From Roseiflexus sp. RS-1 (lineage in GTDB: Bacteria; Chloroflexota; Chloroflexia; Chloroflexales; Roseiflexaceae), in contig NC_009523.1 in the NCBI RefSeq assembly GCF_000016665.1, positions 806,001 through 870,000 of the forward strand: a stretch of DNA of 64,000 nucleotides, given 5' to 3'. The translations under genes and the position numbers were made by a program. Below are positions 2,626-61,682 of this stretch, piece after piece; the first letter of the stretch is position 1, and the number at the start of each line of letters is the position of its first letter. The notes below the pieces were generated by a model. The model worked only from the letters and a program-made list of their open reading frames with translations, did no database searches and was not told the DNA's origin.

Positions 2626-2700
2626 TCTGAGAACTGCTATATTTCTTCAAAGACCATACGCCCTCGGCTATCCAGGGCGAAGCCAGCCAGCGGCAGGCTA
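2626..2700 (-). repeat. decayed copy of the 116-bp palindromic element
   Basis: Contains the reversed left-end signature TTCTTCAAAGACCAT followed directly by ACGCCCTCGGCTATCCAGGG. The same junction is seen (inverted) at 8560-8580, where one element sits inside another. The rest is degraded. The following bases to 2841 hold no gene; 2727-2755 has a short degenerate repeat of GATCCGT-like words. Confidence 0.6.
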
Positions 2701-3983: not shown

Positions 3984-4351
3984 CCCGCACCCTCAATTCC
4001 TCCACCCCGCCGCCAGCGTCGCCACCACGGCGCGGTGGTCCGAAACGCCGTCCCACGGTCCGACCGAGGCATCCAGGCAGACGATCCCGTTTGTGGTGAA
4101 GAGATGGTCGATACGCACGAACCAGGGTAGGACCGGAACTCCCCCGATTGTGCGATTGCCGGGCCATGTGAAGCCAGCGCCGCTGCCGCATTCCCTCCAG
4201 ACATCCGACAGTGCGCCATGTTCGAGGATGTGGTAGGCGCGATGAAACGGGGTCGCGTTCATATCACCGGCGACGACCACCGGTGTGCGCTGCGCCTGGA
4301 CGAAGGCGTTGATCGCTTCCGCCTGACGCTCACGTTCACCGATTGCTGCGG
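3984..4351. repeat. 368-bp direct duplication, copy B (inside the intact EEP gene)
   Basis: Partner of 2226-2593 in the same orientation, lying in the 3' end of the full-length EEP gene. It is the probable source copy because here the sequence continues in frame. Confidence 0.93.
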
Positions 4352-5081: not shown

Positions 5082-5218
5082 TGAATCTAACGCCGCTGGT
5101 TGGTGACCAGTTCCAATATTGGGCGTCTGGTGTTATTGCAATTCTCAGATACATTGTCCCGTCCAGGCCTGCCGTGTCGCGCGAGGCGCCTGCTTCCAGC
5201 AAAGTGTAGACCGAAATG

Positions 5219-5334
5219 ATGGTCTTTGAAGAAATAATCCGGTATAGCCCGCGCAGGCGGGCTTTGCCCTGGTTAGCCGAGGGCTTCAGCCCCACGGCTA
5301 GCGCAGTATAGCGGATTTAATTTTCAATCTCCAT
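5219..5334 (+). mobile_element. 116-bp palindromic element inserted at the centre of a GACCGAAAT palindrome
   Basis: Begins ATGGTCTTTGA and ends TCAATCTCCAT, 116 bp. Internally it has a GCCCGC/GCGGGC hairpin and a long GCTAGCCG...CGGCTAGC hairpin with GGGCT-TC-AGCCC at its tip. The flanks are GACCGAAATG and TATTTCGGTC. Together these make a palindrome like the empty 20-bp palindromes at 37521-37619. No coding capacity; it looks like a non-autonomous mobile or REP-like element. The remaining gap (5082-5634) shows no gene, only this element and the promoter below; 5394-5415 is repeated in reverse at about 37470. Confidence 0.8.
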
Positions 5335-5515
5335 TATTTCGGTCATCGCGTGGGGCGCGCCATTTCCAGGAGTGTTCAGCCTCGTCCAATAGATTCAACC
5401 TTTGTGAGAACCGCTGTGGAAAATACGAAGGCGGTTTCGGGCGTAAGCAATTACACTTTTTGCTTGCATGAATGCCCTCTTTGCCTTGTTAGTGCGTTAT
5501 ATCTCAAAAAAGGTG

Positions 5516-8344: not shown

Positions 8345-8445
8345 CTCACGGGTTGTGCAGAACGCCAGTGATGCACAACGCAAATGTTCAAGGGTTGTGC
8401 AGAATCTGGTAACGCACAACGCACCATTCTGATGGCTGGTGAGTA
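8345..8445 (+). ncRNA. candidate structured RNA: two tandem GTTGTGC hairpins
   Basis: GTTGTGCA/TGCACAAC (about 8352-8379) and GTTGTGC/GCACAAC (about 8394-8420) form two similar hairpins in a row. An outer CTCAC...GGTGAG pairing could close the pair. It lies immediately after a promoter-like element. It may be a 5' leader of the large downstream gene or a small RNA. No known family is recognised. Confidence 0.35.
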
Positions 8446-8778
8446 ATTACTCCGGTATAGCCCGCGCAGGCGGGCTTCGCCCTGGCTAGCCGAGGGCTTA
8501 TGGTCTTTGAGTAAATAATCCGCTACAGCCCGCGCAGGCGGGCTTCGCCCTGGCTAGCCGAGGGCGTATGGACTTTGAAGAAATAATCCGGTATAGCCCG
8601 CGCAGGCGGGCTTCGCCTCGCATAGCCGGGGGCTTTAGCCCGACGGCTCGTGCGGTATAACGGATTAAATTCTCAATCTCCATCAGCCCGACGGCTAGCG
8701 CGGGATAGCGGATTAAGTTCTCAATCTCCATCAGCCCGACGGCAAGAGGTGCATACCGGATTAAGTTCTCAATCTTCA
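8432..8778 (+). mobile_element. three 116-bp elements nested inside one another (L-L-L-R-R-R)
   Basis: The innermost complete copy is 8568-8683 (116 bp, ATGG...CCAT). The second is split into a left half 8500-8567 and right half 8684-8731. The outer is split into 8432-8499 and 8732-8778. Each split falls between GGGCTT (or GGGCGT) and CAGCCC, the tip of the internal hairpin. This geometry is expected from repeated insertion into the centre of the resident copy. No ORF. The remaining bases to 8888 hold no gene. Confidence 0.8.
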
Positions 8779-8888
8779 CGAGAATAGCAATGCAGCACGC
8801 AACGCAGTTGATTGAACGATTCTATAATGAATGCGCGCGGCGTGCCAATGCAGCCCGCACGATAACGCTTCGACAGGCATAATGTCGC

Positions 8889-32968: not shown

Positions 32969-33736
32969 ATGGCAACACTTGAACTGCGCAGCATCAACAA
33001 ATCGTTTCGCGGCGCCGACGGCGCGGTGATGGTGATCGAGCGGTTGAGCATGCAGGCAAACGCCGGTGAATTCGTTGCGATCATCGGTCCAAGCGGCAGC
33101 GGCAAGAGCACCCTGTTCAACATCATCGCCGGGCTGGAAATGCCCGATTCAGGCGCCGTGATCATCGACGGCGTCGATGTCACCGGGCGGCGTGGGCAGG
33201 TGGCGTACATGCCGCAGCGCGACGCGCTCCTCCCATGGCGCAGCGTGATCGAGAACGCGGTGCTGGCGACGATTGTGCAGCGCGGCGATGTGGCCGCCGC
33301 CACCCGCGAAGCACGCGCGCTGCTCGACGACTTTGGACTGACAGGATGGGGCGATGCCCGCCCTGCAATGCTCTCCGGCGGCATGCGGCAACGCGCCGCC
33401 CTGCTGCGCACTGTCCTCTGGCATCGCCCGATCATGCTGCTCGATGAACCCTTTGGCGCACTCGACGCCCTGACCCGCGCCCAACTCCAGCAGTGGCTGC
33501 TCGGCCTGTGGCACCGGCTCGACCGGACGATCCTGCTGGTGACTCACGACATTGATGAAGCGCTGCTGCTGGCAGACCGCGTATACGCGCTGACGCCGCG
33601 CCCGGCGCGAATTGCGCTCGAAGTGGCGGTCGATCTCCCGCGCCCCCGGTCGTATGCAGTCGTTGCCGACCCCGCCTTCGCCCGGCTCAAACTCCGCTTG
33701 CAGCAGGTGCTCATGGTAGAAAAGACTGCGGCCTGA
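32969..33736 (+). CDS. thiZ: ABC transporter ATPase (ThiZ-like)
   Basis: Protein of 255 aa with Walker A GPSGSGKST, signature LSGGMRQR, Walker B IMLLDEPFGALD and H-loop LLVTHDIDEA. It energises the ThiX/ThiY importer. The stop TGA at 33734-33736 uses as its last base the first base of a 116-bp element, so the element may have set the present C-terminus. Confidence 0.9.
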   Translation: MATLELRSINKSFRGADGAVMVIERLSMQANAGEFVAIIGPSGSGKSTLFNIIAGLEMPDSGAVIIDGVDVTGRRGQVAYMPQRDALLPWRSVIENAVLATIVQRGDVAAATREARALLDDFGLTGWGDARPAMLSGGMRQRAALLRTVLWHRPIMLLDEPFGALDALTRAQLQQWLLGLWHRLDRTILLVTHDIDEALLLADRVYALTPRPARIALEVAVDLPRPRSYAVVADPAFARLKLRLQQVLMVEKTAA

Positions 33737-33851
33737 TGGAGATTGAGAATGTATTCCGCTCTACCGCGCTAGCCGTGGGGCTGAAGCCCTCGGCTAGCCA
33801 GGGCGAAGCCCGCCTGCGCGGGCTATAGCGGATTATTTACTCAAAGACCAT
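33736..33851 (-). mobile_element. 116-bp palindromic element, complete copy, inverted
   Basis: Runs from ATGGAGATTGAG to CTCAAAGACCAT, exactly 116 bp, the same length as 5219-5334 and 8568-8683. It abuts the thiZ-like stop codon on the left and the first 154-bp tandem repeat on the right. Confidence 0.8.
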
Positions 33852-34340
33852 AAGCCCTCGCTGAGCGCCTGGAAGCCCCAGCGGGGCCAGGGCGTAGAGT
33901 CCTGGGTGCGCGGGCGCCCCCGCCCGCATGCGCGCCGGAGGCGCGCGCACCTATGAACTTGAATGGGGCGCGGGCGTCTCGCCCGCATGCGGAGACGGCG
34001 AGCGGAAGCCCTCGCTGAGCGCCTGGAAGCCCCGGCGGGGCCAGGGCGTAGAGTCCTGGGTGCGCGGGCGTCCCCGCCCGCATGCGCGCCGGAGGCGCGC
34101 GCACCTATGAACTTGAATGGGGCGCGGGCGTCTCGCCTGCGTGCGGAGACTGCGGGCGGAAGCCCTCGCTGAGCGCCTGGAAGCCCCGGCGGGGCCAGGG
34201 CGTAGAGTCCTGGGTGCGCGGGCGTCCCCGCCCGCATGCGCGCCGGAGGCGCGCGCACCTATGAACTTGAATGGGGCGCGGGCGTCTCGCCCGCATGCGG
34301 AGACGGCGAGCGGAAGCCCTCGCTGAGCGCCTGGAAGCCC
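33852..34340. repeat. 154-bp tandem repeat, three full units plus a partial fourth
   Basis: Units start at 33852, 34006, 34160 and 34314, each opening AAGCCCTCGCTGAGCGCC, with very few differences. Each contains GC-rich palindromes (GCGGGCG/CGCCCGC and GCGCGCC/GGCGCGC). The units are contiguous with no spacers, so this is not a CRISPR array. Frames through it are open only because the unit is GC-rich; none looks like a gene. Confidence 0.92.
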
Positions 34341-34649
34341 CTACGGGGCTTGGGCATCGAGCGCCGGGCAGCATGACGCCGGGCAGCATGAGTGCACCAC
34401 GCGCCTCCTGGGAGCGCGGGCGTCCCACCCGCATGCCCGGCACCTGCGAGCGCGGGCGTCCCGCCGCACGCCCTGAGCCTGGGAGCGTGAGCGTCCCGCT
34501 CGGATGCCCTGAAGAATAAACCACGGATGGGAACGGATGGTACGGATGGACACGAATGGCGGGCAACCGGTCTGCCTCTCGCTGATGAGTCTTATGCCGA
34601 AATGATGGTTGTTGAGCAATTACTCCGCCATAGCTCGCACAGGCGGGGG
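34341..34649. other. GC-rich repeat debris; no gene seen
   Basis: Holds further diverged GGGAGCGCGGGCGTCCC words, a short GGATGG/ACGGATGG repeat (34525-34560), and at about 34604-34649 a decayed left half of the 116-bp element (TGAGCAATTACTCCGCCATAG). Confidence 0.6.
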
Positions 34650-35318
34650 CTAGAGATAGTGCCAGCCCCATTCCCTGCTGACATTGGGATATTTTTGCTT
34701 TAGGGCGTCAGGCAGGTAGATGGCGCCGTAGTCGCGGGCCAGATCCTGATCGGGCAGAGCTTTCATCCGGTATAGGTGTTTCCAGAGTGGCGGAATGAGG
34801 CTGTCGGGTAGTACGGTCACCCGGTCTTGTTCTCTTTTGCCATTGTGCACGGTGATAGTGCGCTGGCGAAATCCACATCCTCAACACGCTGGCGGAGGCA
34901 TTCCATCAGCTGCAGGCCGCTGCCATAGAGGAGTCTGGCCATCAGCTGGTATATACCCGACATCTGAACGACAACACGTTGCACCTCGTCCCGAATCAGA
35001 ACCGTGAAGGCGTTTGGGTTGTTGGGCGCGCAGGGCGTCAATGGAGCTCAGGTCCTGGCAGAGCGCCTCACAATAGAGAAAGAGGAGGGCGGAGAGAGTC
35101 TGAGTCCGGGTAGAGACGGCAACCCGCTCTTCCACAGCCAGACGGGTGAGGAAGGCTTCGCCCCCGGCTGCGCCTATATCGGCGCGGTGGCGTTTGTAGT
35201 GGAACAGGATGGGGTGTCGGATCCAGTCCACGTAAGTGTTCTCGGTGCGGATGGAATAGTGTTTGAGGCGCAGCGTATCCTGAACCTGGTCTTGCAGTTT
35301 CTTGGGTTTTGGTTCCAT
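34650..35318 (-). pseudogene. broken integron-type tyrosine recombinase (IntI/XerC-like)
   Basis: Read leftward from ATG 35318, three overlapping frames together rebuild an integrase. The N-terminal SAM-like domain has LRLKHYSIRTENTYVDWIRH; the central part has [20 protein letters not shown]; then comes [14 protein letters not shown]. Two frameshifts (about 35030 and 34845) separate them. The gene stops at WGWHYL, where a 116-bp-element fragment takes over, so the C-terminal H-x-x-R and Tyr region is gone. Inactive. No convincing attC array is seen. Confidence 0.8.
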
Positions 35319-35401
35319 CACAATTCTCGTGTTACAATAAGGCGGCGGTTGTGCGTAGAGAGGAGCAGAGCGGTTGACAGGGTTATGATACATCTCCCCA
35401 C

Positions 35402-35476
35402 ATGCAACCCCGGGGGCGGATGATACGGAATCTGTATAAGACACATTGGAGAGGAGGAAAGCGGAATCCGTATAAC
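35402..35476 (+). promoter_or_regulatory. 75-bp leader shared by two DUF433/DUF5615 modules (copy 1)
   Basis: Aligns without gaps to 62021-62095 at about 75-80% identity. It has two GGA-TC-GTATAA words 36 bp apart (GTATAA at 35434 and 35470). It ends about 70 bases before the DUF433 start. It could hold two -10 elements or an operator pair. Confidence 0.55.
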
Positions 35477-35545
35477 CAATAGTTAGGCGCATCACAGCGT
35501 GAGCGCCATTGAGAAGAAAGATTTGACTATAGTTAAGGAGGCGCT

Positions 35546-35782: not shown

Positions 35783-36087
35783 GGATTCTCATTGACGAGA
35801 GTTTGCCTCGCTACTTGAAACAGGTACTGGCGGAACATTCCGCCTTCACCGTACAAGAAATGGGTTGGGCAGGCATCAGAAACAGCGAATTGTTGGCAAA
35901 AGCCGAGTCCAACTTTGATGTGCTACTCACCGCCGACAAGAATTTGCGTTATCAGCAGAATTTGAGTGGTCTTGCGCTTGCCATCATCGTATTTCCTTCG
36001 AATAGGTTGAGTGTTGTCAAGACTTTAGCCCCGCAAGTAAAAGACGCATTGTCAGTTATCAGACAAGGGGAGATCATAGAACTCTAA
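35779..36087 (+). CDS. DUF5615 PIN-like toxin-type protein (module 2)
   Basis: Protein of 102 aa starting with GTG inside the antitoxin stop. It has ILIDESLPRYL and LLTADKNLRYQQN, the acidic PIN-like motifs, and NSELLAKAESNFDVL. Its TAA stop is formed by a TA target dinucleotide plus the first base of the IS at 36087, so the C-terminus may be shortened or altered; it is four residues shorter than the module-1 paralogue. Toxin activity is inferred. Confidence 0.85.
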   Translation: MRILIDESLPRYLKQVLAEHSAFTVQEMGWAGIRNSELLAKAESNFDVLLTADKNLRYQQNLSGLALAIIVFPSNRLSVVKTLAPQVKDALSVIRQGEIIEL

Positions 36088-36927
36088 GAGCGTGATCACA
36101 AACGAACATCTCGGATAGAGCCGATTCAGGAGCATTGCGATAGAATCGAGATAAAGGAAGGCCTCGCTTGATTCTGGGTTGCGGTTGTTGCGGCGAATAA
36201 TTATTCGCCGCAACAACCGATTGCGTCCCGCCCACGCAATCGAGCGTTCCACCACCCATCGCTTCGGAATAACGGCACATACCTTTTGTCCGGGCGGTTT
36301 TTCAATGACATTCAGGCGTATCGCCGTGTTCTTTTGCATCCATTCATCTCATCCTTGTTTCTACCCTTCATCCACACGAATCTCGTGCATCCGAGGAAAT
36401 GAGTGATGATGCGCGGCCAAAAGCCATTCCGCGCCTTCGTCATCCGAGATGTCTGCTGGATGCACGAGCACGCGCAGCAAGAACCCATTCGTATCAACCC
36501 AGAATTGCCGTTTGCGCCCGTTGACCTTTTTTCCCCCATCGTCGCCGTGCTCTCCGCCTGCTTCGGTCGTTTTGACTGATTGGAAGTCCAGGACGCTGAT
36601 GGATGGCTCCGGGTCGCGATCCAGCGCTTGTCGCGCCAGTTTCCGCAACGTATCATTGATGTTGACGAATGTTCCGTCACGATTCCATGGGTCGAAATAG
36701 GAGCGAACGGAACTCATCGGCGGAAAATCAGCCGGAAGCAGGCGCCATTGGCAGCCCCTGCGATGTTTGTACAGCAGTGCGTTGACGATTGCTCGCAGAT
36801 CGATGTCGGTCGGACGTCCACCCTTTGGCGACGTGACGGTGACGAGCGGCGCGATGGCGTCTCAGTGCGCATCGGTCAGATCGGTCGCATCATTTGTTGG
36901 AGAGAATCGACGCTCACGTTTCGGCAT
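36088..36927 (-). pseudogene. IS5-family DDE transposase with in-frame stops
   Basis: From ATG 36927 the frame gives MPKRERRFSPTND, then a stop where W is expected (TDAH-stop-DAI). It continues with KGGRPTDIDLRAIVNALLYK, LDFQSVKTTEAGGEHGDDGG (catalytic Asp region), and two more stops at about 36349-36363 (VDEG-stop-KQG-stop-DEW). It ends with IPKRWVVERSIAWAGRNR (catalytic Glu region). A 38-bp palindrome interrupts the C-terminal region. At least three nonsense codons make it inactive unless complemented in trans. Confidence 0.85.
36182..36219. repeat. 38-bp perfect palindrome inside the transposase gene
   Basis: Perfect dyad centred between 36200 and 36201, core GGCGAATAATTATTCGCC. It replaces the residues that normally follow AWAGRNR in this transposase group and keeps frame (LLRRIIIRRNN). 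The related IS fragment has the same dyad reduced to 22 bp (61372-61393). Confidence 0.85.
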
Positions 36928-37002: not shown

Positions 37003-37038
37003 GATAGCCGAGGGCTTCAGCCCCACGGCTCGTTCGGT
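37003..37038 (+). repeat. central fragment of the 116-bp element at the IS boundary
   Basis: TAGCCGAGGGCTTCAGCCCC followed by ACGGCTCGT matches the middle of the 116-bp element and lies directly beside the IS right end. Confidence 0.65.
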
Positions 37039-37049
37039 ACACCGGCAGG

Positions 37050-37349
37050 CGACGGACACAATAGCCCCGCAGGGGCTTCCACGTGCTCAGGGAGGGCTTT
37101 AGCCCGCACGATCTCCCAGGCGAGCGACGGACACAATAGCCCCGCAGGGGCTTCCACGTGCTCAGGGAGGGCTTTAGCCCGCACGATCTCCCAGGCAGGC
37201 GACGGACACGATAGCCCCGCAGGGGCTTCCACGTGCTCAGGGAGGGCTTTAGCCCGCACGATCTCCCAGGCAGGCGACGGACACAATAGCCCCGCAGGGG
37301 CTTTCACGTGCTCAGGGAGGGCTTCAGCCCGCACGATCTCTGCTGGAAG
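37050..37349. repeat. 75-bp tandem repeat, four units
   Basis: Units begin CGACGGACAC at 37050, 37125, 37200 and 37275. They include AGCCCCGCAGGGGCT and GAGGGCTTTAGCCCGC hairpins. The period is 25 codons, so a leftward frame (EIVRAKALPEHVEAPAGL repeated) stays open by arithmetic. Nothing else supports a gene. Bases 37350-37721 hold no gene apart from the palindromes below. Confidence 0.92.
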
Positions 37350-37520
37350 CAGACGCCTCGTGCAACATCCCTCCGCATGCTCCGCGTCTCCGCGTGCATC
37401 AGACCGGCTCATGCGGAGACGCGGAGGCATGGAGATGGGGAAATGACCATGCGCCGTGAGGGTGTTATAGCGGTTCTCACAAAGGTTGAACCCAATGGAC
37501 AAGGTTGCACACTCTACGGC

Positions 37521-37619
37521 GACCGAAATGAATTTCGGTCTACGAGCGGCGACTGAAATCAATTTCGGTCTACAAGAAGAATCGCGCGCCCCACGCGGTG
37601 ACCGAAATAAATTTTGGTC
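37521..37619. repeat. three 20-bp palindromes of the GACCGAAAT-NN-ATTTCGGTC type
   Basis: At 37521-37540 (GACCGAAATGAATTTCGGTC), 37551-37570 and 37600-37619, the last two with one or two changes, each followed by TAC. They look like empty versions of the site that the 116-bp element occupies at 5209-5344. Confidence 0.85.
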
Positions 37620-37721
37620 TACGCTCCGCCGGAAACGGGCGCCGCACGCGACACGGCGGATAGGAACGATGGTCAATGTTGCAGCAGACCGATACAGACG
37701 GCGAGGAGCGTGTATCCCGCG

Positions 37722-61268: not shown

Positions 61269-61681
61269 AGAGCGTGATCAAAAACGAACACCTCGGATAG
61301 AGCCGATTCAGGAGCATTGCGATAGAACCGAGATAAAGGAAGGCTTCGCTTGATTCTGGGTTGCGGTTGTTGCGGCGAATAATTATTCGCCGCTCCCAGC
61401 GATTGCGTCCTGCCCATGCAATCGAGCGTTCCACCACCCATCGCTTCGGAATGACGGCACATCCCGTTTGTCCAGGCGGTTTTTCAATGACATTCAGGCG
61501 TATCGCCGTGTTCTGTTGCAGCCATGCATCTCACTCTTTTTTTACCCCTCATCCACGCGAATCTCGCGCATCCGGGGAAATGATTGATGATGCGCGGCGA
61601 AAAGCCACCCGGCGCCTTCTGCATCTGAAATGTCCGCCGGATGGACGAGCACGCGCAACAAGAACCCATTCACGTCAACCC
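61269..61681 (-). mobile_element. truncated IS5-type element, relative of the one at 36-37 kb
   Basis: Begins AGAGCGTGATCAAAAACGAA like the other copy's left end and is collinear with it through the transposase C-terminus (PKRWVVERSIAWAGRNR) and the VNGFLLRVLVHPADIS region. It then stops at about 61681 within the 'WVD' codons. The N-terminal half and right end are missing. It retains a 22-bp palindrome (61372-61393). Bases 61043-61268 between tRNA and element hold no gene. Confidence 0.82.
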
Positions 61682-61682
61682 A

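Follow-up and report, generated by a model that had tools for sequence, protein, structure and literature searches.

Insertion sequences of the IS630 family duplicate TA on insertion. Small mobile hairpins that can nest mutually are familiar as the double-hairpin elements of fungal mitochondria; these are organellar and are not known to have a transposase. The described target of IS630 is 5'-NTAN (PMC5678879). Two members of the IS1182 family, IS1272 and TnSha1, enter hairpin targets that share no primary sequence, bluntly and with no duplication, and a cruciform model has been proposed for them; both delete or replace part or all of the target stem-loop (PMC5678879, PMC4923244). IS1397, ISKpn1 and IS621 are reported to be specific for particular REP/PU palindromic repeats (titles cited in PMC2817692).

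Here we describe a 116-bp miniature inverted-repeat element (MITE) in a window of 64,000 bp from Roseiflexus sp. RS-1 (G000:C1:806001-870000, part of a single contig of 5,801,598 bp), together with the insertion sequence (IS) that shares its ends. The pair resembles the IS630 family and its MITEs (Correia, RUP) in its transposase family (NF033545, DDE_3), in having terminal inverted repeats and a length of about 1.1-1.3 kb, and in the existence of short non-autonomous derivatives; it differs in that any palindrome can serve as target, insertion being at its centre and free of duplication, rather than into TA (NTAN, often CTAG) with duplication of TA, and even the 2-bp repeats found at non-dyad sites are not TA. 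The MITE is short and non-coding and has ends in common with an autonomous element, but lacks the target-site duplication usual for a MITE. The closest precedent is IS1272 (IS1182 family), which deletes the stem-loop: the hairpin target with no consensus and the lack of duplication recur here, whereas an IS1182-family transposase and deletion of the stem-loop do not. IS1397, ISKpn1 and IS621 likewise enter palindromic repeats, but the palindromes used here are unrelated to one another. In REP/RAYT elements a lone hairpin is accompanied by a GTAG or CGTC tag, and mobilisation depends on a Y1 (HUH) transposase; here the ends are ATGG...CCAT, two hairpins lie within a terminal-repeat stem, and the transposase of the IS with these ends is of the DDE type. 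In the open-access literature, including that on Roseiflexus repeats and Chloroflexus MITEs, we found no earlier report of palindrome-centre insertion by IS630-family elements; prior notice elsewhere is possible. From sequence comparison, we consider it likely (a probability of roughly 0.8) that this IS630 clade inserts at dyad centres with zero duplication.

The MITE in the window and its probable autonomous partner

The MITE has two halves, a left one of 68 bp (L) and a right one of 48 bp (R), joined at the tip of a GGGCT-TC-AGCCC hairpin; imperfect terminal inverted repeats of about 26 bp enclose two hairpins, and the single-stranded fold of each copy is a long terminal stem bearing both (z about -5). 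The copies, fragments and targets in the window are collected in Table 1, where ^ marks an insertion point. The three complete copies of a preliminary description were recovered with the length and the ATGG...CCAT ends it had given. Its L-L-L-R-R-R nest has that order, and every split in it does fall between the two tip bases of the hairpin, as had been claimed; the end of the array is at 8779 and not at 8778. The copy at 5219 sits between palindrome arms as described, but the arms are 9 bp (GACCGAAAT/ATTTCGGTC, tip bases G^T) rather than 10 bp. Empty versions of that palindrome, placed earlier at 37521-37619, start at 37521, 37551 and 37600, each with a 2-base centre. Two further dyads had been missed: the outer ends of the 8432-8779 array themselves lie in the 5-bp dyad ATTCT-G^G-AGAAT, and the copy at 33736 sits inside GGCCT-G^A-AGCCC, a dyad with one mismatch.

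Table 1. Positions in the window of the 116-bp MITE, its fragments and its target palindromes
Feature	Coordinates	Strand	Remarks
MITE left half, truncated	2640..2692	-	
Left arm GACCGAAAT + tip base G, split palindrome	5209..5218	+	
Complete 116-bp MITE; long stem bearing two hairpins when folded	5219..5334	+	z = -4.9
Tip base T + right arm ATTTCGGTC	5335..5344	+	
Left arm + tip base of outer target dyad of nested array (ATTCT-G)	8426..8431	.	ATTCTG^ATGG...^GAGAAT
L (68 bp), outermost MITE copy	8432..8499	+	
L of second MITE copy, placed inside tip of first	8500..8567	+	
Innermost complete 116-bp MITE	8568..8683	+	L 8568-8635 + R 8636-8683
R (48 bp) of second copy	8684..8731	+	
R of outermost copy	8732..8779	+	degraded end TTCAC
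Tip base + right arm of outer target dyad of nested array (G-AGAAT)	8780..8785	.	
Complete 116-bp MITE within GGCCTG^AAGCCC	33736..33851	-	z = -5.5
MITE hairpin-2 remnant (GGGCTTCAGCCC landing pad + flanks)	37005..37045	+	
Three empty target palindromes GAC(C/T)GAAAT-NN-ATTT(C/T)GGTC	37521..37619	.	

Other repeats occur in the window. Three 154-bp tandem repeats (33852-34368, 95-97% identical) begin exactly at the end of the 33736 MITE, and four 75-bp tandem units with GC-rich hairpins of the GGGCTTTAGCCC type (37044-37415) adjoin the hairpin remnant. The GACCGAAATNNATTTCGGTC palindrome is found in the middle of a second dispersed repeat (5140-5420 and 37460-37620) with ends like TATAGCAGTTCTCA...TGAGAACTGCTATA, which is apparently another MITE and a target for the first. 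A dispersed repeat of about 410 bp (36087-36501 and 61269-61682, 85-92% identical) holds the perfect palindrome GCGGCGAATAATTATTCGCCGC; a 300-bp direct repeat (2226-2525 and 3984-4283, 98% identical) has one copy inside an Exo_endo_phos fragment; and a fragment at 34881-35495 carries the N-terminal SAM-like domain of a phage-type integrase (Phage_int_SAM_4). The Rfam family CRISPR-DR28 (RF01356) scored above its gathering score on the first hairpin of the MITE (5245-5268, 8458-8617 and 33802-33825); we judged these matches spurious, the alternative being that the Rfam family includes such elements.

A longer autonomous element with the same ends, envisaged in the preliminary description, was located by following unpaired terminal repeats: a 1256-bp IS with 12 copies in the genome (1256-1258 bp, ends ATGGAC.../...GACCAT). 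None of the 12 is in the window, from which the mobilising enzyme was correctly said to be missing; the enzyme exists elsewhere in the genome. Each of the 12 interrupts a 116-bp MITE at its GGGCTT^CAGCCC tip, with both orientations represented (9:3). MITE and IS have a common ATGG(T/A)CTTTGAATAAATAATCCG end, and their right ends have diverged. The IS carries two overlapping open reading frames, ORFA and ORFB, that meet at a TTTTTCCCCC run and are probably fused through a frameshift. ORFB is an IS630-family transposase (NCBIfam NF033545, 120.2 bits against a cut-off of 100; Pfam DDE_3, 60.4 bits), and the IS630 model was its only NCBIfam match; the sequence contains the DDE motifs YLDE, DNWPVH and NPIEKLW, and Pfam places helix-turn-helix domains in ORFA and at the start of ORFB. 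A PDB sequence search returned no solved structure of a relative. The shared ends and the shared target suggest that this transposase moves the MITE in trans.

Target sites before and after insertion

The flanks of balanced arrays are complementary from the second base outward, the innermost base of either flank being usually unpaired, which puts the insertion point between two unpaired tip bases. Many of these sites (58 of 82) are in three repeat families, whose intact copies show the target before insertion: in empty GACCGAAAT-N{k}-ATTTCGGTC k is 2 in 31 of 33 cases, and in intact GCCGAGGGCT-N{k}-AGCCCSACGGC it is 2 in 134 of 134. Since empty centres have 2 bases and filled sites one tip base per side, the duplication is 0. 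Neither arm and neither tip base is lost, so that palindromes with empty counterparts show no duplication and no deletion; the 12 autonomous copies likewise have zero duplication and one tip base on each side. A hidden TA duplication, as might be read into CTA^TAG cases, fails on the many non-complementary tip bases and on the 2-base empty centres, and coupling sequences (donor bases carried along) were rejected because empty sites already have the 2-base centre.

Comparable empty sites exist for relatives of the IS. The Komarekiella atlantica IS occupies one of two palindromic repeats that stand in tandem, so that its intact neighbour serves as a built-in empty-site control, and the sequence of this neighbour, GTAGAGACGCGATTAATCGCGTC, is the same as that of the flanks once joined (GACGCGATT^AATCGCGTC). 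For Nostoc the control comes from other genomes, where uninterrupted copies of the target repeat can be aligned across the joined flanks AGTCCACTG^AAGTGGACT, mostly with no gap.

The claim of dyad-centre targeting with no duplication stood as the dominant mode but not as an absolute rule. At five non-repeat sites the dyad is weak or absent, and a 2-bp direct repeat (AA, AT, GT, AT) occurs at four of them, against 2 of 19 dyad sites in the non-repeat set; one of the former, at 4684273, has a related empty site that is two bases shorter. These repeats fit a transposase that has the 2-bp stagger of its superfamily but acts in another way on palindromes. For unique insertions, the orthologous empty sites (about 85% identity) gave a mixed picture, with 2 extra bases at 4684273 and 4772896, 1 at 4536890 and 0 at the diverged 2403789.

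Could the palindrome be a product of insertion, one flank being copied in inverted form during repair, rather than a target that was there before? At 1462258 the filled site (...GGGCGTT^AACGCCC..GCGTCAT) does look like such an inverted copy when set against ATGACGCGACCGGGCGTCATCAC in a related genome, its right flank resembling the inverted left, and this palindrome could have been altered in the course of insertion or later; that at 4519649 is likewise unseen in other species. We nevertheless regard this explanation as unlikely, because the target repeats of the three families, of Nostoc and of Komarekiella exist intact and empty at the same length as the joined flanks, and because a small loop between short arms is already present in the orthologous empty sites of 4684273, 4772896 and 4536890.

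Targeting might also be specific for the sequence of a few abundant palindromic repeats, as with IS1397 or IS621 and REP/PU, all other symmetry being incidental; the concentration of balanced arrays in three repeat families and the strong preference for T beside the tip speak for this. We therefore scored separately the 24 arrays outside the three families, which avoids counting a repeat family many times. Their flanks were complementary at 4.21 of 6 positions, as against 1.80 (sd 0.26) when left flanks were paired with right flanks of different sites, a shuffle that abolishes the match (best of 5000, 2.83). At least 4 of 5 pairs were found at 16 of the 24 sites, compared with 2.0% of random genomic junctions (p = 3e-22). 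Each of these sites has its own sequence, e.g., the split dyads CACAGGATG^CATCCTGTG, GGGCGTT^AACGCCC and AACTATTG^CGATAGTT, and the only consensus across them is a T (or A) beside the tip, so that recognition of sequence by a symmetric dimer fails as an explanation. With the use of many unrelated palindromes across the clade, this makes targeting of a few repeats quite improbable, even though some sequence preference does exist (T strongly favoured next to the tip, and C beyond it in relatives). Reverse-complement flanks, which the preliminary description had predicted from its few examples, are thus far above chance genome-wide, both at repeat-family and at non-repeat sites. The terminal-repeat pattern itself (up to 2 mismatches) has 322 + 319 = 641 matches in the genome and none when reversed, and together with flank symmetry far beyond the shuffles this shows that the observation is not due to chance.

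The clade and the nested arrays

To collect relatives, we searched GTDB genomes with three aligned members as the query and obtained 75 loci. Among members at 31-57% identity, the inverted repeat around the gene extends past the ATGA/ATGG/TTGA ends into the flanks. The match over flank positions 4-10 is 4.15 of 7 at 27 such clade loci and 2.15 in shuffles, none of 10000 of which scored as high; the same procedure, used to find and score 13 distant canonical IS630 elements with CTAG ends, gave 1.62 and 1.75. Calling the ends of relatives by eye is a weakness of these scores, for which the canonical set serves as the control. The preference of the clade next to the tip is CT, and CTA^TAG is present in only part of the relatives. 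In a maximum-likelihood tree one branch with 100/100 support parts all dyad-flanked members from all canonical ones, so that the clade is separate from the members that target CTAG. Its hosts belong to Chloroflexota, Cyanobacteriota, Bacteroidota and Abditibacteriota and to bins labelled Pseudomonadota and Latescibacterota, several of the host genomes being metagenome bins that are possibly misassigned. A search of plasmid and phage collections gave no clade members, and plasmids yielded only distant canonical IS630.

This distribution bears on whether the transposase only excises the element, the palindrome tip being opened by an SbcCD-like nuclease and the excised element captured by end joining. 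Breaks at palindrome tips by such nucleases are known and would form no duplication, but the junctions are exact, with no bases lost or added, over many copies and several phyla, and the occurrence of this kind of insertion tracks the transposase tree, which points to the transposase itself; we hold nuclease capture to be very improbable.

Profile searches for L and R over 2.52 Mb of the host genome gave 279 clusters: 79 with L only, 34 with R only and 166 with both halves, and all of the last follow the order L^nR^m, with no LRLR or other mixed order among the 279. The MITE's own palindrome, GGGCT-TC-AGCCC, makes it its own target, and self-insertion at that palindrome gives L^nR^n nests. MITE nesting and dyad flanks recur in three other genomes of the same taxonomic order. 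When LLRR arrays are compared with one another, the inner elements differ by a median of 14.5 positions and the outer by 28, which indicates that the inner insertions are younger. Tandem slippage or unequal recombination, to which unbalanced arrays (e.g., six L, three R) and one 310-bp periodic duplication might be ascribed, is an extremely remote explanation of the nests, since slippage, which the preliminary description had named as the way in which its reading could fall, would yield LRLR, and since the tip^ATGG and CCAT^tip junctions are both exact and free of microhomology and the inner copies are younger.

Arrays at 2403789 and 4182358, which lie at unrelated palindromes, differ by just 11 of 232 bases across the four halves, so that the LLRR composite also appears to transpose as a unit; because composites keep the same outer ends, they would be mobile in this way. 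MITE-in-MITE junctions are in the same orientation in 133 cases and inverted in 1 (the array at 3851049), while the tips of dyad sites as a whole show no preferred polarity (G^A 19, T^C 18). Composite transposition lowers the count of independent events, probably without removing the 133:1 bias. With respect to the replication strand, MITE orientations are mixed and GC skew is weak.

A possible route to insertion at palindrome tips

We propose that the target is an extruded hairpin or cruciform and that each 3' end of the transposon is joined to the tip of a different cruciform arm. These two points of attack would face each other across the strands, so that the flanks stay paired and only nicks remain, with no gap filling and hence zero duplication; on ordinary duplex the enzyme would revert to a 2-bp staggered attack and leave a 2-bp duplication. 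In the strand-transfer complex of Mos1, target adenines are flipped out and thymines unpaired, and a weak T:A pair favours integration (PMC5481204), which makes an unpaired-dinucleotide tip a plausible substrate. A general cruciform scheme has been drawn for IS1272, with attack at other hairpin positions (PMC5678879). Two points weigh on the cruciform step: in a long cruciform the two tips would be widely separated for a single transpososome, and certain dyad arms, at 4-6 bp, offer little length for a cruciform to be stable. The substrate may instead be a single-stranded hairpin at the replication fork, and we give the cruciform-tip step, taken by itself, about an even chance.

That relatives in several bacterial phyla also insert at dyad centres suggests that one branch of this very common family of transposons reads the shape of DNA rather than its sequence. 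Structure-directed targeting by DDE enzymes was known from IS1182 relatives, where the hairpin is damaged; here it would belong to IS630/Tc1-mariner, a superfamily with well-understood integration structures (Mos1), and the target is left intact. Because arms and tip bases are retained, which is not the case for IS1272 and TnSha1, insertion looks formally reversible. As a wider reading, for which the odds seem to us evenly balanced, a whole Tc1/mariner clade may have swapped TA targeting for shape recognition, placing each end at the tip of a cruciform arm in an exact and reversible way, and in one lineage the MITE hairpin may have become a self-renewing landing pad that draws MITE and autonomous copies alike into harmless nests. 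The element would moreover report sites of palindrome extrusion in living cells, and the self-nesting MITE is a clear case of an element that bears its own safe landing site.
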